Shown here: positions 7,293 to 34,276 of the stretch, piece after piece | How the letters are laid out: the number at the start of each line of letters is the position of its first letter | Numbering within the stretch: position 1 is the first letter of the stretch | Source of the DNA: a virus | Direction: 5' to 3' (one strand) | Virus record (IMG/VR): IMGVR_UViG_3300021071_000002 | Span: 1 to 40,197 of that record | DNA length: 40,197 nucleotides | Program-made: the position numbers and the translations under genes | Notes under the pieces: model-generated | Databases searched by the model: none | What the model was told of the DNA's origin: nothing | Seen by the model: only the letters and a program-made list of their open reading frames with translations

Positions 7293-7323
7293 TTGACACC
7301 CCGGTGCGTGTCTCGCGTAGGAT
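7293..7323 (+). promoter_or_regulatory. Predicted promoter for the HTH regulator
   Basis: TTGACA (7293-7298) and TAGGAT (7318-7323) are 19 nt apart, and ATG 7331 begins 7 nt after the second box, implying a leaderless message like that of lambda cI. Here, unlike the other TTGACA sites, a -10 box can be found and the start codon is more distant. A GTG only 5 nt after the hexamer (7304) is a less likely start. Confidence 0.45.
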
Positions 7324-11164: not shown

Positions 11165-11250
11165 TAAAAACGAACCAGTTTGATGGGGGCTGTGCGCCCC
11201 CAAACCCCGCACCGCTCGCCGCGGCAGGCGTTCGGGGGGAGACTTGTTGG

Positions 11251-11336
11251 CGCTTGCCTGGGGCAAGCGTGAAAAAAATGAGGCTGGCGGAGCCCGAAAG
11301 GGCTCCTGTAAACCAGCCGTTATGTGTCACATAACG
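11251..11336 (+). promoter_or_regulatory. Hairpins and palindrome ahead of the transposase start
   Basis: Three structures are stacked here. CGCTTGCC/GGCAAGCG (11251-11269) is the first. GGAGCCC-GAAA-GGGCTCC (11289-11306) follows, enclosed by GGCTGG/CCAGCC (11282-11318). Last comes a perfect 19-bp palindrome, CGTTATGTG-T-CACATAACG (11318-11336), which contains the ATG. Such structures can block ribosomes arriving on read-through transcripts, or can bind the transposase. Confidence 0.6.
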
Positions 11337-12581
11337 TTGAAAACCATACTGAGAGAAGTTCACCCGATCAAGGGCTTTGTCTATCAATCCGTGACGAGGG
11401 ATCCGGTCCGCCCGAAAGCATTTCGGGTGCAAATTGCCGAGCGCCAGGGCTGTTGGGGGATTTGTTCGGGTTGCGGAAAGAAGGGGCCGGGATATGATCG
11501 GCAACCGGAACGCCAATGGGACTTCATTCCCCTCTGGGGCATGGCCGTTTTTCTGGTCTATGCGCCCCGGCGAATAGACTGCAACAAGTGCAGACCGACC
11601 ATCGAGAGGGTTCCTTGGGCCACCGGCAAGCACCAGATCTGCGATGTGTTCCGGCTCTTCCTTGCCCAATGGGCTCGCCTGCTTTCTTGGGCGGAGGTTG
11701 CCAGATGCTTCCGCGTCAGTTGGGCCGACGTGTATGGAGCCGTCAAATGGGTCGTAGAATACGGCATCGAGAACCGCGATCTTTCCGGCGTCCAAGCTCT
11801 CGGTGTGGACGAGATCCATGTGGGCAAGAAAGACAAGTTCTGGACGCTGGTCTATCAGATCGACGACCACTGCAAGCGGCTCCTGTGGATCGGCACCGAC
11901 CGCACCGAGGAGACCTTCAACCTCTTCTTTGAGGTTTTCGGCACCGAGTTCTGCAATGGCATCCGCTTCATCTGTTCGGACATGTGGAAACCCTACATCA
12001 AGGCGGCCGCCGCTCACTTGCCCCACGCACTTCAAATCCTCGACCCCTTCCACATCGTCAAAAAACTCAATGACGCAGTCGATGAGATCCGACGCGAGGA
12101 AACCCGTGCGCGTGTCCAAGCCGGCCTCGAACCCTTGCTCAAAAAAATGCGCTGGGCGTTCTTGAAAAGACGATGCAACTGGACCAAGGGGCAGCGCCGT
12201 CGCATGCGAGAAATTGAGGGCTCTGCTCTGCGCACCCTGCGGGCCTTTCTTCTGGTCGAAGCCTTCAGACACTTCTGGACGTATTGCTCGCCGACTTGGG
12301 CCGGAAAATTTCTTGACGCATGGTGTGAAAAGGTCGCCCGCTCGCGCCTGGATCCGCTCAAAAAAGTTGCCCGCACCCTCCAATCCCACCGAGGTCTTCT
12401 TCTCAACTATTTCAAGGCCGCCAAGCAGTATTCCAGCGGAGTCGTCGAGGGTCTCAACGCCAAGGTGAAATTGACGCTAAAACGCAGCTATGGATTTCGC
12501 ACGGAAAACGCTCGCGAAGTCGCTCTTTATCATTGTCTTGGAAAATTACCCGAACCCAGTTTCACCCACAGTTTTTTTTAG
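11322..12581 (+). CDS. ISL3-family transposase
   Basis: The 419-aa protein has the ISL3 layout: an N-terminal zinc-finger region with CSGCGKKG and later DCNKCR, an HTH region (SWAEVARCFRVSWADVYGAV), then the DDE catalytic core. The core includes ALGVDEIHVG (first Asp), FICSDMWKPYIKAA (second Asp) and SGVVEGLNAKVKLTLKR (Glu), ending in KRSYGFR. The length is usual for the family and no stop or frameshift is seen, so it is probably active. ATG 11322 is the start that fits the domain; the frame is open upstream to 11244 through the hairpins. The stop codon lies within the right inverted repeat. Confidence 0.93.
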   Translation: MCHITLKTILREVHPIKGFVYQSVTRDPVRPKAFRVQIAERQGCWGICSGCGKKGPGYDRQPERQWDFIPLWGMAVFLVYAPRRIDCNKCRPTIERVPWATGKHQICDVFRLFLAQWARLLSWAEVARCFRVSWADVYGAVKWVVEYGIENRDLSGVQALGVDEIHVGKKDKFWTLVYQIDDHCKRLLWIGTDRTEETFNLFFEVFGTEFCNGIRFICSDMWKPYIKAAAAHLPHALQILDPFHIVKKLNDAVDEIRREETRARVQAGLEPLLKKMRWAFLKRRCNWTKGQRRRMREIEGSALRTLRAFLLVEAFRHFWTYCSPTWAGKFLDAWCEKVARSRLDPLKKVARTLQSHRGLLLNYFKAAKQYSSGVVEGLNAKVKLTLKRSYGFRTENAREVALYHCLGKLPEPSFTHSFF

Positions 12582-12808: not shown

Positions 12809-13324
12809 ATGGACCCGATCAAGCGACTCCTGGAAATCGCCACCCACGAGGTGGGCACGCACGAGGTAGGCGGCAACAACTGCGGCCCCCGCATCGTGGA
12901 ATATCAATCCGCCACCTGGCTCAATCCCGCCCCGTGGCCATGGTGCGCGGCGTTCATCTGCTGGATTTTGCGCGAATGGCTTCAGTCGCCGGAAGTTCGA
13001 GAGAAATTGTCGTTATGCAACGACATTTCTGTCGAAAACTGGCGTCCGCAGACGGCTGGCGCATTCGACTTCGAACGGTGGGCGAAGGAAAAGGGGCTCC
13101 AAGTTCTGAAAAAGACCGCCCTCGCGAAAGCCGGGGACATCGTGATTTTCGATTTCTCCCACATCGGCATCATCGTGAAGGATCAGATCTCGGCCGACTC
13201 GATTGAAACGATTGAGGGGAACACGAACGGCGGCGGTCAGCGCGACAGCACCACGGGCGATGGCGTGTGGCGCAAACGACGAGCGGCCAGCCTGGTACGC
13301 TCGTTTATCAGGTTGATCCGTTGA
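12809..13324 (+). CDS. CHAP-domain endolysin
   Basis: The 171-aa protein begins MDPIKRLLEIATHEVGTHEV and has WPWCAAFICWIL, supplying the catalytic cysteine, then AGDIVIFDFSHIGIIVKD, with the catalytic His, and IETIEGNTNGGGQRDSTTGD, as in phage CHAP-family (TIGR02594-like) peptidoglycan hydrolases. It cleaves peptidoglycan at lysis. No signal peptide or binding repeat is seen. Its place between terminase and portal is unusual, as the holin-like and spanin genes are 21 kb downstream, so it could alternatively help tail entry. Confidence 0.85.
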   Translation: MDPIKRLLEIATHEVGTHEVGGNNCGPRIVEYQSATWLNPAPWPWCAAFICWILREWLQSPEVREKLSLCNDISVENWRPQTAGAFDFERWAKEKGLQVLKKTALAKAGDIVIFDFSHIGIIVKDQISADSIETIEGNTNGGGQRDSTTGDGVWRKRRAASLVRSFIRLIR

Positions 13325-13339
13325 CACCCGCCGTCCGGC
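13321..13339 (+). promoter_or_regulatory. TTGACAC start-associated motif before the gpW-like gene
   Basis: The TGA of the endolysin stop is inside the hexamer (13322-13324); 13 nt separate it from ATG 13340. Confidence 0.55.
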
Positions 13340-15048: not shown

Positions 15049-15492
15049 CTATCGCCCAAGGTGTTTCCGCCAAAACTCGGGGATGATTTCGTTTGGAACA
15101 TCCCTTGGTAATTTTCGGTTCATGCTGTCAAACCACGCGTTGTCTGGAACATCCGAGCCTGAGAAATCGGCGATGGCTTCCCATCCTGTGCCCTTTTTTG
15201 CCAAGAGATATTGGTAGGACATATCCGGCAAATAATCTGTCATCGGACTCGTGCCGTCTTCAAAAACCGGAAACCCACTGAAGAATGCGTATTGGCCCTC
15301 AACCTTGAGATAATCGACCTTGAAAACTATGCGTTTGGGCAGTTTTTTCGTTGTCTCATTTTTTCCAACATAGCTTCGCAGCGCATCGCAAATGGCCGTT
15401 CTCTCAGGGGTTCCCAGCTTGGGAGTGTAAGGAGCAGCCTGTGCGTGCAGGCCAACGAGAAACACTGCGACTGAGACGATGACAGTTTTCAT
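15049..15492 (-). CDS. Secreted small protein in reverse orientation (moron)
   Basis: The 147-aa product has a signal peptide (MKTVIVSVAVFLVGLHAQAA, cleavage after AQA). It continues APYTPKLGTPERTAICDALR, and later QYAFFSGFPVFED, SYQYLLAKKGTGW and the C-terminal ...FWRKHLGR. I recall proteins with GTPER..I.DALR and a W-rich beta domain as widespread periplasmic proteins of unknown function. It is transcribed against the late operon between portal and head protease, the classic position of a moron. ATG 15492 is chosen because the signal peptide begins there. Confidence 0.72.
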   Translation of the reverse strand: MKTVIVSVAVFLVGLHAQAAPYTPKLGTPERTAICDALRSYVGKNETTKKLPKRIVFKVDYLKVEGQYAFFSGFPVFEDGTSPMTDYLPDMSYQYLLAKKGTGWEAIADFSGSDVPDNAWFDSMNRKLPRDVPNEIIPEFWRKHLGR

Positions 15493-15534
15493 GGTTCGAA
15501 GCACGCTAGACGCGAATGCGCGTGCCGTCGATAA

Positions 15535-15554
15535 TTGACACGGGGTTCCACGGC
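15535..15554 (+). promoter_or_regulatory. TTGACAC start-associated motif before the head protease
   Basis: TTGACA is followed by 14 nt and GTG 15555, which moves the predicted start 13 codons inside the open frame that begins at ATG 15516. Confidence 0.55.
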
Positions 15555-16955
15555 GTGAACCTCACACTCCTTCAAAAACAGCCATGGCTGATCTCTCCCG
15601 AAGCACTCGGGGCGATGGTCGCCGCCACGAAATCCTTCTTCGACAACACGCCGGATCTTCCTGACCGCCCGATCTCGCCCTGCCTCACATTGGAGGACGG
15701 GGTGGGAATTATTTCGATCACCGGCCCGATGCTCCGCAATCCGGACATCTTCGACCGGATTATCTTCGGGGCCTGCAACACCGGGGAACTCATCACTGCC
15801 GTGGAAGAGGCGGCATCCCGGCCGGACGTCGAGGCGATCTTCCTCGACATCGACAGCCCCGGTGGATCGGTCAACGGCACGCCCGAACTTGCCCAGGCCG
15901 TGGCTGAGGCGAGCAAGGCAAAATACGTCTATGCGTTCAGTGCCGGGCAGATGTGCTCGGCTGCCTACTGGGTCGCGAGTCAGGCGGATGCGATCTACGC
16001 CACCCCGAGCGCACGGATCGGCTCGATTGGCGTGATCCTCCCGGTCGTGGATTCCTCGGCCGCCTTCGAGCAGGCCGGTCTCAAAATCGAAGTCTTTGCG
16101 GCGGGCAAATTCAAAAGCGCGGGCACCCCCGGCACGAGCCTCACCGACGAACAACGCGATTGGCTCCAGTCGGAGGTCGAGGAAACCGCCGGGGATTTTC
16201 ATGCGGCCGTGCTCGCCCGCGGGCGCAAGATCCCCGATGAAGCGATGGAGGGGCAGACGTTTTCCGCGCGGAAGGCGATGCGCTTCAATCTCGCCGGAAT
16301 GGTGGCAAGCCGAGGGGAGGCGCTCTCCCGGTTGCGGAAACTTCATGTCCGTTCGGTTGACACGGATTCCGGTGCAATGAGCGCACCATCCATTGAAAAC
16401 GAACTCGCCCAGGCCCGTGAGCAGATCACCCGACTGGAATCCGACGCCTCCGCTCGGGACGCCCTCCTGACCGAAGCCAACACCAACATCTCCGAGGCCA
16501 CCGAAAACCTGAGCGGCCTGCAAGCCCGGCTCGAAGCACTCGAAGGCGAACACCGGATCGAGGCCGAGTCTCACGTTCAGGCTCGCGCCGATCTTGACGC
16601 TGCCAAGCACTCGATCGCATCGCTCACGAACGACAACTCCGCTCTCGACGGCAGCCTCAAGGAAATTCAGGCACGCAATGCCGCCCTCGATCTCAGCCTC
16701 AAGGAAATCCAGGGGCGCAATGCTGCACTGGAAGCCGCCGAGCAGGATCTCGAAAAGCGGGCCTCCCTCCGCGCCGCCCAGATCGTTGCCGAAACTGGAA
16801 CTCACGCTCCTGCCAACGTCACCCCGAAAGGCGATCCGCAGACCAGCAATCTCATGGAGCGCTTCCGCTCGATCACCAATCCCGGCGATCAGACCGCTTT
16901 CTGGCAGAGCCTCTCCGCAGACCAGAAAAACCAACTCATGTCCTCAACCAAGTAG
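15555..16955 (+). CDS. S49-family prohead protease with C-terminal scaffold region
   Basis: From GTG 15555 the product has 466 aa. The N-terminal 260 residues are a SppA/ClpP-like protease: LDIDSPGGSVNG, then SAGQMCSAAYWVAS with the serine nucleophile, then AAGKFKSAGTPGT with the catalytic lysine. The remainder is a long acidic coiled coil (residues about 275 to 425), such as SLKEIQARNAALDLSLKEIQ. It ends with DLEKRASLRA and a short tail, as in lambda gpC and its nested scaffold Nu3. It cleaves head proteins during maturation, including itself. Confidence 0.92.
   Translation: MNLTLLQKQPWLISPEALGAMVAATKSFFDNTPDLPDRPISPCLTLEDGVGIISITGPMLRNPDIFDRIIFGACNTGELITAVEEAASRPDVEAIFLDIDSPGGSVNGTPELAQAVAEASKAKYVYAFSAGQMCSAAYWVASQADAIYATPSARIGSIGVILPVVDSSAAFEQAGLKIEVFAAGKFKSAGTPGTSLTDEQRDWLQSEVEETAGDFHAAVLARGRKIPDEAMEGQTFSARKAMRFNLAGMVASRGEALSRLRKLHVRSVDTDSGAMSAPSIENELAQAREQITRLESDASARDALLTEANTNISEATENLSGLQARLEALEGEHRIEAESHVQARADLDAAKHSIASLTNDNSALDGSLKEIQARNAALDLSLKEIQGRNAALEAAEQDLEKRASLRAAQIVAETGTHAPANVTPKGDPQTSNLMERFRSITNPGDQTAFWQSLSADQKNQLMSSTK
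16357..16376 (+). promoter_or_regulatory. TTGACAC start motif inside the protease gene
   Basis: TTGACAC encodes part of SVDTD in the protease, yet it lies 14 nt before an in-frame ATG at 16377, where a Nu3-like scaffold would begin. Confidence 0.6.
16377..16955 (+). CDS. Nested in-frame scaffold protein (Nu3-like)
   Basis: The proposed 192-aa product starts at MSAPSIENELAQAREQI and consists almost wholly of heptad-patterned acidic coiled coil followed by a C-terminal helical tail (LMERFRSITNPGDQTAFWQS). In lambda, Nu3 is made from an internal start of gene C and organises capsid assembly. Here the same layout is backed by the start-associated motif 14 nt upstream. No Shine-Dalgarno site is visible. 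This is inferred from sequence and not proven. Confidence 0.68.
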   Translation: MSAPSIENELAQAREQITRLESDASARDALLTEANTNISEATENLSGLQARLEALEGEHRIEAESHVQARADLDAAKHSIASLTNDNSALDGSLKEIQARNAALDLSLKEIQGRNAALEAAEQDLEKRASLRAAQIVAETGTHAPANVTPKGDPQTSNLMERFRSITNPGDQTAFWQSLSADQKNQLMSSTK

Positions 16956-16961
16956 CATCTC

Positions 16962-17855
16962 ATGTCCAACATCCTCACCAACGCAAAAGACGTCAAAGTC
17001 GCGCAGTCGGCCCTCAAGCCGTTCATGGCGACGCTCCTGCCCATGCGGGCATTCTCCAGCAACTTTTCGCCCGAGCCCGCTGACAAGCTCGACACGATCC
17101 GCGTCCCGATCGTGGGCGCACCGAGTCCGGCAAGCGACTTCGGCGGAAGCTACACGACCGACGTGGATTCCTCGATCGACGTGGCTCCCGTGCAACTGAA
17201 CCGGCACAAATACAAGACCGTCCATGTCACAGCCCGCGAGGCGGCCGAGACCGCACTCAACGTGCTGGAAACCCTGGTTGGCAGCGCGGTCAAGCAGCTC
17301 GCCCAGGATGTGCTCCAGGACATCTTCACAGAGATCACGACCGCCAACTACGGCGCACCCGCGATCGCCGCCCTGGCCTCGACCGCCTTCGACTACAAGA
17401 AGGTGCTCGGCGTGCGGGAAGCCTGCGGGGCGGCGAGAATGCCGAGCACAGACCGTGCGCTCGTGCTTGATGCCGCCTACTTCAGCAACCTCCTTGGTGA
17501 CGACATCGTGGCCAAGAGCTTCATGACGCCGGTTGCTCTTCCGGGCGTGGTCGATGGACTCATCCGCCGCCTGGCCGGGTTCGATGTTTATGAAACCACG
17601 ATCCTGCCAAACAGCGACGAGAAGCTGGTCGGATTTGCCGGGCATCCGAGCTGCCTCGCGGTGGCGATGCGCTACCTCCAGCCTGTCGCCCAATACGACG
17701 AGGCTGGCGCGGTCACCGATCCCGAAACCGGGCTCACCTTCGGCTACCTGCGCTACACTGAGACCAGCTCGAACCGGATCTTCGTCACCGTCGAATGCCT
17801 CTACGGCTTCAAGGTGGCGATCCCCGGCGGCCTCAAACGCATCGTCAAACCCTGA
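16962..17855 (+). CDS. Major capsid protein
   Basis: The 297-aa protein follows the protease-scaffold gene by 6 nt, the standard position. It has FMATLLPMRAFSSNFSPEPA at the N-terminus and TIRVPIVGAPSPASDFGG, typical of capsid N-arms and E-loops. Later comes GFDVYETTILPNSDEKLVGF, then FAGHPSCLAVAMRYLQPVAQ and SSNRIFVTVECLYGFKVA, the P-domain-like pattern of many HK97-fold coat proteins. The exact Pfam family is not certain. A strong terminator lies 22 nt downstream, consistent with high expression. Confidence 0.85.
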   Translation: MSNILTNAKDVKVAQSALKPFMATLLPMRAFSSNFSPEPADKLDTIRVPIVGAPSPASDFGGSYTTDVDSSIDVAPVQLNRHKYKTVHVTAREAAETALNVLETLVGSAVKQLAQDVLQDIFTEITTANYGAPAIAALASTAFDYKKVLGVREACGAARMPSTDRALVLDAAYFSNLLGDDIVAKSFMTPVALPGVVDGLIRRLAGFDVYETTILPNSDEKLVGFAGHPSCLAVAMRYLQPVAQYDEAGAVTDPETGLTFGYLRYTETSSNRIFVTVECLYGFKVAIPGGLKRIVKP

Positions 17856-17965: not shown

Positions 17966-18178
17966 ATGAGCGCGCTTGAAGTTCTTGATCATTTGCGGGA
18001 GGCCGATGCCAACGAGTTGGCCATGGTTAGAGACACGGCCGAATCTCTTCTGTCAGTCGCAACACTGACCGCAAGTGAGGATCGGGAAATTGCTGACGCG
18101 CTTGAAGAATCCGAAGCCCAGTTTGCAAGGGGCGAAGGCATCCCCGCGGCTGAAGCCTGGCGGAGACTGGGAATTTGA
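17966..18178 (+). CDS. Antitoxin of a ParE/RelE-type module
   Basis: The 70-aa acidic protein is mostly helical; its C-terminal half, REIADALEESEAQFARGEGI then PAAEAWRRLGI, is the pattern of small antitoxins that pair with RelE/ParE toxins (acidic helix plus a short toxin-wrapping tail). It would neutralise the toxin and repress the pair. The stop overlaps the toxin start (TTGA). It is placed between a terminator and the next tail gene and carried as an extra element. Confidence 0.78.
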   Translation: MSALEVLDHLREADANELAMVRDTAESLLSVATLTASEDREIADALEESEAQFARGEGIPAAEAWRRLGI

Positions 18179-18468
18179 AAAACTTCGCCGTCGAAATCTC
18201 CCCAAGGGCTCTTCGAGACCTTGAGCGTGTAAAACGCGAGGTCTTTGATGCGTCACAAAGCGATTCGATTACAGCAGACTATCTGCGAAGAATTGCCGCC
18301 GAGATAGATGACCTGAGCACAATGCCCACCCGTTTTCCGTTTTGGAAAAACAGCCGGCAATACCGATTCCTAATCGCCGAGAAGTATCTCGCGTTTTTCC
18401 AAATCGAAGGGATGCGGGTGAAAGTCTCCCACGTTCGTTACGCAGGACGAAGGCCGTTTCGAGGATAG
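18175..18468 (+). CDS. ParE/RelE-superfamily toxin
   Basis: The 97-aa protein has the fold markers of this superfamily: NFAVEISPRALRDLERVKRE at the N-terminus, IAAEIDDLSTMPTRFPFWKN in the middle, and RQYRFLIAEKYLAFFQIEGM then VKVSHVRYAGRRPF at the end. The R..L...Y...F.I....V.V..V...R pattern is diagnostic. Such toxins cleave mRNA at ribosomes or poison gyrase. The start is TTG 18175, overlapping the antitoxin stop, so toxin synthesis is coupled and weak. In a prophage it may stabilise the element or block rival phages. Confidence 0.85.
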   Translation: MKNFAVEISPRALRDLERVKREVFDASQSDSITADYLRRIAAEIDDLSTMPTRFPFWKNSRQYRFLIAEKYLAFFQIEGMRVKVSHVRYAGRRPFRG

Positions 18469-18472
18469 CCCG

Positions 18473-18491
18473 TTGACACGCCCGGCGGGGC
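18473..18491 (+). promoter_or_regulatory. TTGACAC start-associated motif before the head-tail gene at 18492
   Basis: TTGACAC begins 4 nt after the toxin stop, and 13 nt separate it from ATG 18492. Confidence 0.55.
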
Positions 18492-18797: not shown

Positions 18798-19195
18798 ACG
18801 TGGACATCGAGCGTGGATTTGTTGCGGTGATCCAGGCGGCCATGCCGGGCGTGCATGTGCGCGAGGCGACGAGCTCGAAGCCGCATCCCTCGGACGTGCA
18901 GATGGTGATCGTCCAGTGCGCCGAGTGCGAGCATGTGGTCGGCCCGCTCTACCGGGGGACAGTGAAGGCGTTCCTTGGCACTCCCGCATTCGACATGGGC
19001 GAATCCCAGCACCGGGAGGCGGCGGGAATGCTGGCTCTTGCGCTCCTCGACCCGGCGGCTGCGGCGAACCTCTTTAATCCGGTTGCGGGCCATCTCACGC
19101 TTCACGGTTTTCACGTCCGTTCACAGTCCGAGGAAATTGTCGATAACACCTGGCGGGCGACCGTTGAGCTGATCGCGGGCATCCGTTTCGGTTGA
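18794..19195 (+). CDS. Tail completion or minor tail protein, unknown family
   Basis: The 133-aa alpha/beta protein has MNVDIERGFVAVIQAAMPGV, then QMVIVQCAECEHVVGPLYRG, and ends in RSQSEEIVDNTWRATVELIA. An N-terminal helix plus alternating strands resembles tail terminator proteins, which sit at this point of the gene order in lambda-like phages (gpU-like). The stop codon TGA is part of the next start-associated motif. The function is inferred from gene order. Confidence 0.6.
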   Translation: MNVDIERGFVAVIQAAMPGVHVREATSSKPHPSDVQMVIVQCAECEHVVGPLYRGTVKAFLGTPAFDMGESQHREAAGMLALALLDPAAAANLFNPVAGHLTLHGFHVRSQSEEIVDNTWRATVELIAGIRFG

Positions 19196-19210
19196 CACGT
19201 CATCCCGTGC
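19192..19210 (+). promoter_or_regulatory. TTGACAC start-associated motif before the 70-aa gene
   Basis: The motif contains the upstream stop (TGA 19193-19195). 13 nt lie between it and ATG 19211. Confidence 0.55.
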
Positions 19211-21848: not shown

Positions 21849-21867
21849 TTGACACGCCCCCTGCGGC
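21849..21867 (+). promoter_or_regulatory. TTGACAC start-associated motif before the tape measure gene
   Basis: The hexamer directly follows the upstream stop and leaves 13 nt to GTG 21868, supporting GTG as the start. Confidence 0.55.
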
Positions 21868-24270
21868 GTGGCCGACATCACCGCCAGGTTCCGACTCGAT
21901 ATTTCCGGCATTGATGCCGCGCTCGCCCGTGTAGCGGCTGCGACGATTTCCGTGCAGGGCGCATTTGCCGCGGCGAACGCCGCCCTGGCTCCATTCGCGA
22001 GCGCGTTTGCCGCAATCAAAGAATCCCTCGACCTGGGCGGGCATCTCTCCGATATGAGCGCGCAGACCGGGATAGCGGTGGGCGATCTCGTTGTCCTGCG
22101 GCAGGCATTTTCCAATGCGGGCATGGATGCCGATTCCGTCGGCCCCCAGATCAACCGGCTGCAGAAGGCGCTCGGCGGGATCAACGAGGAAGGGGAGCCG
22201 ACGAACAAGGCACTCGCCGCGCTCGGGATTTCGATGAACGAACTTCAGTCGCTCAACCCGGCGGAGCAATTTGCGCGGGTATCGGCAGCGATTGCGAAGA
22301 TCCCGGACACGACCGAGCGGGCGGCAACGGCGATGGGGATCTTCGGGCGCAAGGGGGCCGCATTGCAGGCGATCTTCTTGGACAGCACCGCGATGGAAGT
22401 CGCCCGGCAGCAGGTCGGCGGGCTCGGGGATACGATGCAGGCGAACGCGGCGCGATTCGATGTGATCTCCGACGCCTTCGAATCCGCCCACTTAAAAGGC
22501 CAGCAGCTTGCGGCGGGATTCACGGCGGCGATTGCCCCGGCACTCGAGGTGGTCGGCAACGCGCTCAATGAAACCGACCTCTCGGGCCTTGGAAAATCCC
22601 TTGGTGAAATCGCCGTCGCTGCCATCCGTTTCGGCCAGGCACTATCTGGCATGATCCCGCAGATCCTCGGCGTGGTGGGGGCAATGGCGGCCTACCGCAC
22701 CGGCTTCGATGCGAATCTCGGACGGGCCATGCTCAACATCGGCCCGGTGGCGACCCGCGCATTCGCCCAGGTTCGCGTGGCAATGGCCACGATGAACTTT
22801 TCGAGCGTAGGGACAGCAGCCCGCACCGCCTTTGCAGGCATCGGGGTGGCGGCCCGAACGGCGGCCATCGCGATCAAGAGCGCTGTCATTTCCACCGGCA
22901 TCGGACTTCTTATTGTCGGGATCGCCATGGCCATCGAGGCCGTGATTGCGAAAATCAACCAGACGAAGGAAGCCATCAAGGCGGCGGCAACAGCGACCGG
23001 CGACACGCTCAAGGCCGTGAACTCGGTCGCTGCAGAAATGAAATCCGTGTCGAGCGAGGCGGACAAGGTGGATCTCGGGAACCGCATCGACCAGCAGATC
23101 GAATCCACCAAGGAATCGCTCGCCGGGCTCGCCGACCAGTTCGAGAACCTCACGCCCGAGCAGCGCAACGACATCGCAAGTGAATACCGCAAGCGCATCT
23201 TGCTCCTCGGCCAAATGAAGGAAGTCATGTCCGCGATCACGCCCGAGATCATGGCGCAACGACAAGCCGAGAAAGACCGCGCGGCGGCACTGGCGGAAAG
23301 CCAGCGGAAGGCGGCGGGGCTCAATGCGGAGCTTGGAAAAAACAAGGAGGCACTCGACAAGAAGATTGCTGATGCCGCATTCAGCGACCTTTCTGCCACC
23401 GACCAGAAAGATGTGACACTTGCGGGCGTTGGCTCCTCCTCCACGGCAAACGTGGATGCCGAGATCGCTCTTCTCGCAGCCAAGCGGGAATCCTCATCGC
23501 TCACAACTGACGAGGTGCTCCGCATGCAGGCGCTCATTGATGCGCGGGAAAAACTCATCGGCGTCGAGCGCGACCTCGCCCGTGAACGCGAGCAGGCGGC
23601 GAAGAAGGCCGAGGAGGACGCGAAAAAGGAAGCCGAGGCGACGGCGAAACGCTCGGAGTTCACCCGCGACGTGAACCGGGAAATCGCGCGCGCAAAGGCA
23701 GACGCATCGGGCGACAAAAAAACCGTGGCTCGGCTCGACCACGAGGCGAAACTCGATCAGGAAACCAAGCAGGGGATCTCGGCTGGCCTGGATCCCAAAG
23801 ATGCCGCCCGCCTGGCAAACGAGAAAGTCGGCGCGCTCGACTTGGCTGACGCCTCCAAGAAAGACGAGGAGAACAGAAAGACGCTCACCGCCTTGGATCT
23901 GGAAACCCGACTTGCCGAGGCGAAGGCGGATGGAAACAAAGAAGAGGCCGCCCGGATCGAGTGGCTGCAAAAATACAACTCCGAGCTCGCCCGGCTGCGG
24001 GACGTGATGCCGGAGGCCGATGCCCAAGCGGCTGCCGCACGGCTGGTCAACGCACAGTCAGCCGGTGAACCTAAGGCCGCACAGGAACGAAGCGGCGCGC
24101 TCTATGCGTCTTCGATGGCGCGAATCGGAGCTGGCGGCAATTTTGTTTCCAGCGGATCGGATCCGATCCTGACCGAGAACCGTCGGCAGACAACGATCCT
24201 TGAGCGAATCGCCCGTGCCGTTTCGCGCCAGGACACCCAGAGCATCGAGCTCAACTACACGCTCGCTTGA
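21868..24270 (+). CDS. Tail tape measure protein
   Basis: The 800-aa protein starts with a helical domain rich in alanine (ALARVAAATISVQGAFAAAN). It continues with a lambda gpH-like FGRKGAALQAIF pattern (residues about 150 to 170) and a hydrophobic pair, GMIPQILGVVGAMAAY and TGIGLLIVGIAMAIEAVIAK, likely involved in membrane entry. The rest is a long charged coiled-coil region and a C-terminal tail. It sets tail length and is ejected with the DNA. GTG 21868 is the start because of the upstream motif and the overall fit. Lengthwise it is medium-sized and suggests a tail on the order of 120 nm, assuming 1.5 A per residue. Confidence 0.88.
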   Translation: MADITARFRLDISGIDAALARVAAATISVQGAFAAANAALAPFASAFAAIKESLDLGGHLSDMSAQTGIAVGDLVVLRQAFSNAGMDADSVGPQINRLQKALGGINEEGEPTNKALAALGISMNELQSLNPAEQFARVSAAIAKIPDTTERAATAMGIFGRKGAALQAIFLDSTAMEVARQQVGGLGDTMQANAARFDVISDAFESAHLKGQQLAAGFTAAIAPALEVVGNALNETDLSGLGKSLGEIAVAAIRFGQALSGMIPQILGVVGAMAAYRTGFDANLGRAMLNIGPVATRAFAQVRVAMATMNFSSVGTAARTAFAGIGVAARTAAIAIKSAVISTGIGLLIVGIAMAIEAVIAKINQTKEAIKAAATATGDTLKAVNSVAAEMKSVSSEADKVDLGNRIDQQIESTKESLAGLADQFENLTPEQRNDIASEYRKRILLLGQMKEVMSAITPEIMAQRQAEKDRAAALAESQRKAAGLNAELGKNKEALDKKIADAAFSDLSATDQKDVTLAGVGSSSTANVDAEIALLAAKRESSSLTTDEVLRMQALIDAREKLIGVERDLAREREQAAKKAEEDAKKEAEATAKRSEFTRDVNREIARAKADASGDKKTVARLDHEAKLDQETKQGISAGLDPKDAARLANEKVGALDLADASKKDEENRKTLTALDLETRLAEAKADGNKEEAARIEWLQKYNSELARLRDVMPEADAQAAAARLVNAQSAGEPKAAQERSGALYASSMARIGAGGNFVSSGSDPILTENRRQTTILERIARAVSRQDTQSIELNYTLA

Positions 24271-24285
24271 CACGCCCCGATACCG
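24267..24285 (+). promoter_or_regulatory. TTGACAC start-associated motif before the distal tail gene
   Basis: The motif contains the tape measure stop (TGA 24268-24270); 13 nt separate it from ATG 24286. Confidence 0.55.
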
Positions 24286-27023: not shown

Positions 27024-27443
27024 ATGGACTTCGCGCAAACCATCCACTGCAAAAGCCGCTTGCACTGCCACGCTTGCCGAACCAACGAAAGCTGGCGGAA
27101 CGCGCTCGGTGCGCCCGGACAATGCCCGTATGGGGAGGGAGAATCCGCTCCACTTCTGTCTATCCGAAACATGGCAGCGAACCCTGCCCGCCCAGCCGAG
27201 CCGACCGCTTTGGAGCTGGCTTCCAACTTCGCGTCGGCGGTGGCGCGTTGGGCTGCCGCCGGGTTTCAAGTCGCCTCAAGGGAGGCATACGACGGGCGGA
27301 CAGCGGCGTGCGCGGCGTGCGAGTTCTGGGACGGCTCCGCTCGCCTCGGGCTCGGGAAGTGCGCCCACAAGAAGTGCGGCTGCACGAGGTTCAAGCGCTG
27401 GCTCGCCTCGGAAAGATGCCCGCTCGGCAAGTGGCGCGATTGA
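27024..27443 (+). CDS. Zinc-binding phage protein of 139 aa
   Basis: Cysteines and histidines come in metal-site spacing: IHCKSRLHCHACR at the N-terminus, and AACAACEFWD then KCAHKKCGCTRFKRW and CPLGKW at the end. I recall the end motif (CP.GKW) from small phage proteins of unknown function linked to tail fibres. It may fold as two zinc ribbons. ATG 27024 gives a start that matches the first CxxxxxCxxC. Its stop overlaps the next motif. Confidence 0.62.
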   Translation: MDFAQTIHCKSRLHCHACRTNESWRNALGAPGQCPYGEGESAPLLSIRNMAANPARPAEPTALELASNFASAVARWAAAGFQVASREAYDGRTAACAACEFWDGSARLGLGKCAHKKCGCTRFKRWLASERCPLGKWRD

Positions 27444-27459
27444 CACGGGCTCCCATCGC
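27440..27459 (+). promoter_or_regulatory. TTGACAC start-associated motif before the collagen-like fibre
   Basis: The motif contains the upstream stop (TGA 27441-27443); 14 nt separate it from GTG 27460, which sets the fibre start far inside the open frame that runs from 26884. Confidence 0.55.
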
Positions 27460-29999: not shown

Positions 30000-31733
30000 A
30001 TGGCAGCGATCACATTCCCATCCTCACCGACCGTCAACGACACATTCACCGCTTCCGGCAAATCTTGGACATGGACGGGCACCGTCTGGCATGCCAACGC
30101 CACAACGCACTCTGCCACCCACGCCACAGGCGGCGCGGATGAACTTTCTCCAGAAGCCATTGGCGCGGCAAGCATTGAAGAACTTTCCGCATGCGCTTTA
30201 GATATATCACACTATGGCGGCATTGTTAATAGCCTGATGGACGGGTCGGGCTCGGTTGTCTATGCAATGAACGCCAGCGAGGCGAATCACTCGAGATCGG
30301 CAGACAGCGCCACCTACGCTGAGCGGGCAGGGGAAGCCGACAACCCTAGCGCCGGCGGCTCTCTATACATAGCCTGCCAATCGGCATCCACTGCACTGCA
30401 AGACGCATCGGCTTTTGCAACGGCCGAGCAAGGCTTGCGCGCAGATACAGCCGTGCAGCAATCAGACATAGGAATGCTTTTTCTTGGCCCAAACGGAGAC
30501 GGCAGCGGTTTGACGGGGATCACTTTAGCTGCCCATGTGTCGTCCATCGAAGACCATAATGTCAGCGAGTTAAGTAATGATGTCGGTTATGTGAAGACGA
30601 GCGAACTAGCAACTGCCAGTGTTGCTTTCGCTAGCGGTGCAGATGGCGTGAACTACCTGACGGGGCACAGCATATCTGAGCTGTTCAACGATCAAGGCTA
30701 TATCACCATTACAGATGTAGGGAATGCAAACGCTTGGAGCGCAAACTCGGCAGGTACGGCAACCTATGCAGATAGCGCCGGAAGCGCACAGACCTCATCA
30801 ACCCTTGATGGACACTCGGCAAGCGATTTCATTCTTACGTCTGACATTGGATCGTCAGTTCTTGCGCCTACCGGAGACGGCAGCGGGTTGGCTGGGGTGA
30901 GACGACCAGCCTCTTTTGAGCTATCCGCATACGTTCCTGATCCAGCTATTTACTCTAACTGGTATCCAGCCGATATGCTTCATGAGTTTGTTTCGTATGG
31001 CGGCGCGTGGGTCGAGGTATCGAGATCGCGCGATTATGAAACCTCCGGGGGCATCGTCATTGGAAATGGAGGAACTACGTTAATGGCGGTTCCAAATAGC
31101 ACGGATGGGAGCTTTGTCATCCCAGATGGAATAACAGCCATTGCAGCTAATGCGTTTTTCGATTGCGAACACATAACGGAGGTGTCCATTCCTTCTAGCG
31201 TGACAAGCATTGGAGATTTTGCATTTAAGGGATGCAATAGCCTTTCTAGCCTGACAATCCCAGATAGCGTGACCATGATCGGAAACTCTGCTTTCATTGG
31301 GTGCAGCTCTCTCACAAGCATAGTGATCCCCTCCAGCGTAACGCGAATTGAGGCGTCAGCCTTCAATTCTACCGGGCTAACCAGCATAACGATTCCATCA
31401 AGCGTGACCAGCATTGGAGATTTCGCATTCGCCGGAAGCGGCAATCTGACAAGCATCGTGTTTTCTTCTGGCCTGACCAGCATAGGAATCAATGTATTCT
31501 ATGGCTGCACCGGATTAGTTAGCGTCACCTTGCCTGCAACCTTGAGCAGCCTCGGAAACTACTCATTCTCTCATTGCAGCAGCCTGGAATCCGCAACCTT
31601 CGATGGGAATGATCCCGCATATGTAGGGGCGGGAGTGTTTGAGTCTACGCATAGCGGGTTCACCGTCAAATACCACACAGGAGCATTGGGATTCTCGAAT
31701 CCGTGGCACGGATTTCCTTGTGTAGCAATTTAA
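30000..31733 (+). CDS. Tail fibre with BspA-type leucine-rich repeats
   Basis: The 577-aa protein starts like a phage fibre (AAITFPSSPTVNDTFTASGK) with ASGKSWTWTGTVW. Spaced repeats of DGSGLTGI type follow (residues 168 to 173 and 290 to 300), and the C-terminal part has the BspA/LRR_5 repeat LTSITIPSSVTSIGDFAF in about 8 copies with SIPSSVTSIGDFAFKGC style. Base composition in the repeat region is more AT-rich than its neighbours, consistent with recent gain. Such LRR domains bind proteins or surface glycans and may set host range. Confidence 0.82.
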   Translation: MAAITFPSSPTVNDTFTASGKSWTWTGTVWHANATTHSATHATGGADELSPEAIGAASIEELSACALDISHYGGIVNSLMDGSGSVVYAMNASEANHSRSADSATYAERAGEADNPSAGGSLYIACQSASTALQDASAFATAEQGLRADTAVQQSDIGMLFLGPNGDGSGLTGITLAAHVSSIEDHNVSELSNDVGYVKTSELATASVAFASGADGVNYLTGHSISELFNDQGYITITDVGNANAWSANSAGTATYADSAGSAQTSSTLDGHSASDFILTSDIGSSVLAPTGDGSGLAGVRRPASFELSAYVPDPAIYSNWYPADMLHEFVSYGGAWVEVSRSRDYETSGGIVIGNGGTTLMAVPNSTDGSFVIPDGITAIAANAFFDCEHITEVSIPSSVTSIGDFAFKGCNSLSSLTIPDSVTMIGNSAFIGCSSLTSIVIPSSVTRIEASAFNSTGLTSITIPSSVTSIGDFAFAGSGNLTSIVFSSGLTSIGINVFYGCTGLVSVTLPATLSSLGNYSFSHCSSLESATFDGNDPAYVGAGVFESTHSGFTVKYHTGALGFSNPWHGFPCVAI

Positions 31734-33418: not shown

Positions 33419-33441
33419 TTGACACGAAAACGATACCAACA
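33419..33441 (+). promoter_or_regulatory. TTGACAC motif, 17-nt spacing
   Basis: The hexamer directly follows the upstream stop (TGA 33416-33418). The spacing to ATG 33442 is 17 nt, longer than in the others. Confidence 0.45.
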
Positions 33442-34117: not shown

Positions 34118-34276
34118 GTGCCGCACGGATGCGCCATGGTTCCGGGCAGCTCTCCGGCAATGAAGGCAAAAAAGAACCTTGAGGCGGCGGAGGCCGCGCT
34201 TTCGTGCGACGGCTTTATGAAACCATTTCCTGCGGGCGATGCAAGACATGCGGTTGACATCGCCTCCGGTGCATGA
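34118..34276 (+). CDS. Possible 52-aa small protein in the lysis region
   Basis: The frame from GTG 34118 (GGGGAGGGGAAA immediately upstream) to the stop at 34276 encodes a helical sequence (AMKAKKNLEAAEAALSCDGF) and shares its stop with the next gene start as ATGA. The strong ribosome-binding site and the overlap support a gene, but nothing is recognised and the next gene has its own start motif, so it may also be leader sequence. Confidence 0.35.
   Translation: MPHGCAMVPGSSPAMKAKKNLEAAEAALSCDGFMKPFPAGDARHAVDIASGA
34254..34272 (+). promoter_or_regulatory. TTGACAT start-associated motif before the 63-aa membrane protein
   Basis: The hexamer lies within the possible 52-aa frame; 13 nt separate it from ATG 34273. 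Confidence 0.5.

Follow-up and report, generated by a model that had tools for sequence, protein, structure and literature searches.

How can a single phage reading frame yield two proteins, and what marks the second start when neither a Shine–Dalgarno (SD) sequence nor the stop codon of an upstream gene is there to mark it? The window studied here (the whole stretch of DNA that was analyzed, 40,197 bases long, a tailed-phage record from a phage of Verrucomicrobiota bacteria) raises this question inside its head-protease gene, where the word TTGACAC lies within the coding sequence. The original prediction was that this word announces a nested scaffold, in the manner of lambda C/Nu3. How start codons are chosen in SD-poor bacteria is an open question, and TTGAC offers it a sharp, testable word. 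Well over a hundred phage loci have starts marked in this way, some of them internal starts that no upstream stop can assist.

Results

One Frame with Two Starts

The genes of the head region run in the order TerL, gpW-like, portal, protease/scaffold, and capsid (Table 1). The Peptidase_S49 domain and the match to the PHROG head maturation protease are carried by an ORF listed as 15516-16955. Judging from the sequence, its true start is most likely GTG 15555 and not ATG 15516, because TTGACA at 15535 sits 14 nt upstream of that GTG and the motif holds this place in 54 of 55 distinct relatives. The protease is 29% identical to lambda C across 218 aligned residues; its S135 and K187 align opposite lambda S166 and K218 and, by that alignment, would form the catalytic pair.

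Some of the neighborhood deserves mention in its own right. An ISL3-family transposase gene (11244-12581) lies in the phage structural region, with TerL on one side and the endolysin gene on the other, and an opposite-strand ORF of 151 aa (15049-15504, minus strand) between portal and protease has no family match and resembles a late insertion. A ParE-like toxin gene (18175-18468) lies between the capsid and Hc1 genes, with a small overlapping ORF upstream as a possible antitoxin; neither of the two carries the TTGAC motif. Downstream of the collagen-like fiber is a BspA-type leucine-rich-repeat protein (30000-31733), for which a surface or adhesion function is likely.

Within the protease gene, the hexamer TTGACA at 16357 stands 14 nt before an ATG (16377-16379) that is in frame with the protease ORF, just as had been predicted. 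The frame passes through the motif as GTT-GAC-ACG (Val-Asp-Thr, V-D-T), which bears out the further claim that no upstream stop is involved here. Nor is there a purine-rich complement of CCUCC 5–10 nt upstream of 16377. A product begun at this ATG (MSAPSIENELAQ...) would have 192 aa, a mass of 20,685 Da, and a pI of 4.8, and it would end at TAG 16953-16955. Its AlphaFold model (pLDDT 90) has one long helix (residues 6–140) followed by three small C-terminal helices, the form expected of a coiled-coil scaffold; the modeled structure fits a scaffold role, and a fold search using it gave no meaningful match.

What should one ask of a locus of the lambda C/Nu3 type? It should have an S49-type protease with a catalytic serine and lysine, placed between the portal and capsid genes, and its 3′ end should encode, without a change of frame, a helical coiled-coil scaffold with an internal ATG. 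Both are met, and gene order, the alignment with lambda C, the Ser/Lys pair, and the predicted helical scaffold together support the organization that had been proposed.

Table 1. Positions in the window of the head genes and of the motif copies that precede start codons
Feature	Position	Strand	Match or remark
gpW-like gene signal, TTGACA 13 nt before ATG 13340	13321..13326	+	Stop of the upstream endolysin gene lies inside the motif
Protease start signal, TTGACA 14 nt before GTG 15555	15535..15540	+
S49 head-maturation protease fused to scaffold, full length, 466 aa	15555..16955	+	Pfam Peptidase_S49, E=2.6e-27; PHROG head maturation protease
Putative internal start signal, TTGACAC	16357..16363	+	Within the protease frame (V-D-T codons)
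Possible hairpin, start codon in loop (GGTGC-aATGagc-GCACC, outer pairs GGAT/ATCC)	16364..16393	+	Minority of sites only
Putative nested scaffold, 192 aa, start ATG 16377	16377..16955	+
Major capsid protein	16962..17855	+	PHROG major head protein; starts 6 nt past the scaffold stop, without TTGAC motif
TTGACA 13 nt before ATG 18492 (head closure Hc1)	18473..18478	+
TTGACA 13 nt before ATG 19211	19192..19197	+
TTGACA 13 nt before GTG 21868 (tape measure)	21849..21854	+
TTGACA 13 nt before ATG 24286	24267..24272	+
TTGACA 14 nt before GTG 27460 (collagen-like fiber)	27440..27445	+
TTGACA 17 nt before ATG 33442	33419..33424	+
TTGACA 13 nt before ATG 34273	34254..34259	+

A Word at a Near-Fixed Distance from Start Codons

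The window contains 10 copies of TTGACAC, all on the plus strand, where 3.3 would be expected on both strands together and where none of 100 shuffles reached 10; 9 of the 11 plus-strand TTGACA sites fall 13–14 nt before an ATG or GTG. For the collagen-like fiber ORF, which was listed from 26884, the probable true start is GTG 27460, behind its TTGACA. Presence of the motif follows the spacing of genes: it is found at all six genes with gaps of 15–23 nt and at none of the eight with gaps of about −5 to +6 nt (Fisher p=0.0003, from small numbers, one genome, and hand-made gene calls). The portal start, for instance, overlaps the stop of the gene upstream. The sole TTGACAC that is not near a start codon (7293-7299) has TAGGAT about 19 nt farther on and resembles an ordinary promoter.

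We fetched 79 related viral loci and 32 loci from bacterial genomes. Bacterial-genome matches above 35% identity belong to Verrucomicrobiota (one bin being named only “bacterium”), and the distant ones come from Desulfoluna and a Fibrobacteres bin. Besides the protease, the motif precedes the starts of Hc1 (29/33), terS (21/24), the gpW-like gene (30/43), endolysin (6/6), and tape measure (8/10) among these relatives, and it precedes none of 31 portal and none of 29 capsid starts. On the coding strand of this family, TTGACA is followed by ATG or GTG 151 times at 13 nt and 85 times at 14 nt, over a background of 7.4 per distance. The sixth base may be A, G, or T; TTGACC has no spacing peak, either here or in the second family described below. 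Aligned sites read TTGACAC, a C-rich stretch, GGC, and then the start codon.

The motif-bearing phages have no clear SD spacing peak, and there is no clear excess of pairing for a hairpin inside the spacer. Hairpins around the start codon, with 5-bp stems, occur at a frequency of 0.11 (0.023 expected) and in the second family at 0.17 (0.04 expected), both from small numbers. The start codon lies in such a predicted loop in the window (16364-16393) and at roughly 10–20% of motif sites, above recombined controls, with possible compensatory changes between relatives; we keep this as a side observation.

In the LW23 lineage (L062, L063, L099, and L100), TTGACT stands at the protease start as well as at the nested one, and it occurs at 20 forward and 0 reverse sites (the four loci include near-copies). 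The idea that TTGACT is a dialect specific to this lineage was weakened by the presence of TTGACT or TTGACG at particular genes elsewhere. Strain LW23 itself holds prophages that differ: the L099/L100 lineage uses TTGACT and has no TTGACA at 13/14 nt, and the L089/L090 lineage has mostly TTGACA.

The Junction Is Conserved as Nucleotides

If the internal word were only a stretch of protein, one would expect it to stay in frame. In 95 related loci, the motif and an ATG are found at the junction of protease and scaffold; 68 of these have the two parts fused and 27 have them as separate genes. The fused genes space motif and ATG by 14 nt (39 loci), 17 nt (7), or 23 nt (22, largely one closely related group), and the split genes do so by 15–17 nt, or by 20–21 nt in one distant group. 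In the split relatives, too, this motif precedes the start of the scaffold ORF, which frequently lies in a different frame, and the TGA within TTGACA is the protease stop in 18 of the 27; since this ORF is a separate one, that start must work there. Judged by such comparison, the junction motif is not retained for the protein's sake, because it survives changes of frame. The fused genes themselves carry the same mark: among 446 four-codon windows compared for synonymous conservation across 34 representatives, the top ones fall on the motif, whose Val is encoded by GTT every time (31 of 31). Two Akkermansia prophage loci (L102 and L104) and L076 lack the motif at the junction; six other loci gave no junction call, in most cases owing to a contig that stops short.

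A second family carries the same arrangement independently. Searching other portals in the same class turned up L276, whose head protease belongs to the ClpP family (Pfam CLP_protease, E=1.5e-31) and whose TerL and portal are 30% and 26% identical to those of the window. In L276, too, protease and scaffold form one fused gene, whose junction reads TTGACA-14-ATG; at the equivalent place in its viral relatives (L278–L357), TTGACA is followed by an in-frame ATG without exception (80 of 80 loci), at a distance of 14, 20, or 23 nt. Across these 80 loci, TTGACA is found 490 times on the coding strand and 48 times on the other; 271 copies lie at a spacing of 13–14 nt (207 and 64, respectively, over a background of 4.9 per distance). 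From the same nucleotides this family encodes F-D, not V-D.

Hosts and an Outgroup

At the same internal junction, Desulfoluna prophages (33–34% identity) carry AGGAGG 8 nt upstream of an ATG that is in frame. They thus share the internal start and mark it with an SD signal, an argument for TTGAC as a functional stand-in for SD. A reversed-pattern control proved unsuitable, Desulfoluna scoring high as well, and we therefore used spacing spectra instead.

In sampled stretches of three verrucomicrobial host genomes, there is no TTGAC peak at 13/14 nt, and the motif as a host-wide signal was rejected on that ground. The sampled host stretches also have no SD spacing peak, in agreement with the listing of Akkermansia as SD-scarce (PMC10783764). 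A search of 16S rRNA from two host genomes turned up no complement of TTGACAC. Nor is the motif a rule for all phages of the class, since it is missing from prophages with HK97-type portals in other genomes of that class. An SD-rich reading of other verrucomicrobial prophages, drawn from strand counts, was dropped when the spacing test gave no SD peak.

Discussion

We think it most likely that UUGAC is a phage-specific, SD-independent translation-start element that here drives a nested scaffold like that of lambda C/Nu3, a reading for which there are no expression data. One frame would then give two proteins, with GTG 15555 starting the protease–scaffold fusion and internal initiation at ATG 16377 yielding a free scaffold of 192 aa. 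UUGAC(A/G/U), with the end of the hexamer 13–14 nt before the start codon, would direct initiation at both, and it would replace SD in a phage group whose hosts use SD little. The capsid gene begins 6 nt past the scaffold stop without a signal of its own, and so ribosomes leaving the scaffold would probably feed capsid synthesis as well. To this explanation as a whole (two in-frame proteins, UUGAC-directed initiation in place of SD, and a coupled capsid gene) we assign a probability of roughly three in four. The motif, its position, its conservation, and the constraint on its nucleotides can be read from the compared loci; its role in translation, an excess of scaffold, the coupling of the capsid gene, and the use of a separate scaffold product in capsid assembly are inferred.

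Could TTGAC be a DNA element instead? TTGACA is, after all, identical to the sigma-70 −35 consensus, and a phage late promoter, perhaps served by a phage factor, could give the scaffold and other genes separate, nearly leaderless transcripts. Such a promoter would suit the strict strand bias and the use of the word at many late genes, its restriction to phages, the somewhat loose spacing at the scaffold, and one minus-strand protein with a sub-threshold sigma region-4-like match. It suits less well the aligned sites, which have no −10 box about 17 nt after TTGACA and a GC-rich spacer where melting would occur, or a position tied to the start codon at 13–14 nt. Why, moreover, should a promoter be missing from precisely those genes whose starts are coupled to the stop of the gene upstream, and why should an SD sequence take its place at the same internal start in Desulfoluna? 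We regard a promoter as less likely than a translation element, indeed as unlikely, and it is not excluded.

One might also suppose that there is no internal start, that scaffold is freed only by proteolysis, and that V-D-T is kept for the sake of the protein, for instance as a cleavage site. Head proteases are able to process their own scaffold, and V-D-T is conserved in the fused relatives, but the constraint lies on nucleotides beyond the residues, split relatives read the motif in another frame with its TGA as the stop and the scaffold as a separate gene, and the ClpP family makes F-D of the same letters; we give this account very little credence. A chance −35-like word beside a random ATG is conceivable for so short a hexamer, which does turn up by chance elsewhere, and is already contradicted by the 95 loci that conserve the word and by an independent family, leaving it next to no standing. 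The translation-start element remains our preferred reading, and the original claim that the motif is a start signal gains support from nucleotide-level conservation in different frames and from the separate scaffold genes that begin behind it in 27 relatives. Some points speak against it. The spacing at nested starts (14, 17, 20, or 23 nt) is loose for a ribosome signal, three loci (L102, L104, and L076) are without the motif at the junction, the 16S rRNA of two host genomes offers no complement, host genes lack the signal and so leave its reader unexplained, and no RNA, ribosome-profiling, or protein data stand behind it.

A larger claim is that a large group of Verrucomicrobiota phages possesses its own SD-independent start word, UUGAC(A/G/U) at 13–14 nt upstream, which host genes do not use, which would imply a factor supplied or recruited by the phage, and on which the nested starts of two protease families depend. 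Toward this we lean only slightly. Were it true, the annotated starts of many phage genes would need correction, and a recognition factor as yet unknown would be implied.

How much of this is new? The nested protease–scaffold organization is already known from lambda C/Nu3. The TTGAC start signal appears to be undescribed so far: we found no description of it in the open literature, a search that left out subscription papers and preprints and that is not proof of novelty.

Comparison with Known Systems

Lambda C/Nu3 is likewise an in-frame fusion, an S49 protease followed by a C-terminal scaffold that has its own in-frame start inside the gene; its order A-W-B-C/Nu3-D-E matches that of the window, and the catalytic Ser and Lys align. 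The window differs in that its start is marked by TTGAC and not by SD, in that its scaffold part has no detectable sequence similarity to that of lambda, and in that some of its relatives keep protease and scaffold as separate genes. TTGAC resembles the SD sequence itself in being a short word that keeps a near-fixed distance from the start codon downstream of it and is used inside genes too, but it is another sequence, it lies farther upstream (ending 13–14 nt from the start), and it has no 16S rRNA complement that we could find. ACA translation-enhancer motifs of enteric bacteria, which act together with SD and without a strict position (PMC3879156), are also short upstream sequences that raise initiation, and UUGACA contains ACA; the phage signal, however, also takes the forms TTGACG and TTGACT, keeps a near-fixed position, and does without SD. 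A further comparison is with the SD-less initiation of Bacteroidota (PMC6847099) and of SD-scarce Akkermansia (PMC10783764), which occurs, as here, in bacteria that retain CCUCC. In Flavobacterium, what tunes such initiation is mRNA structure together with single bases close to the start (PMC6847099), whereas the phages studied here have a specific word, in a GC-rich context, that is confined to phages.
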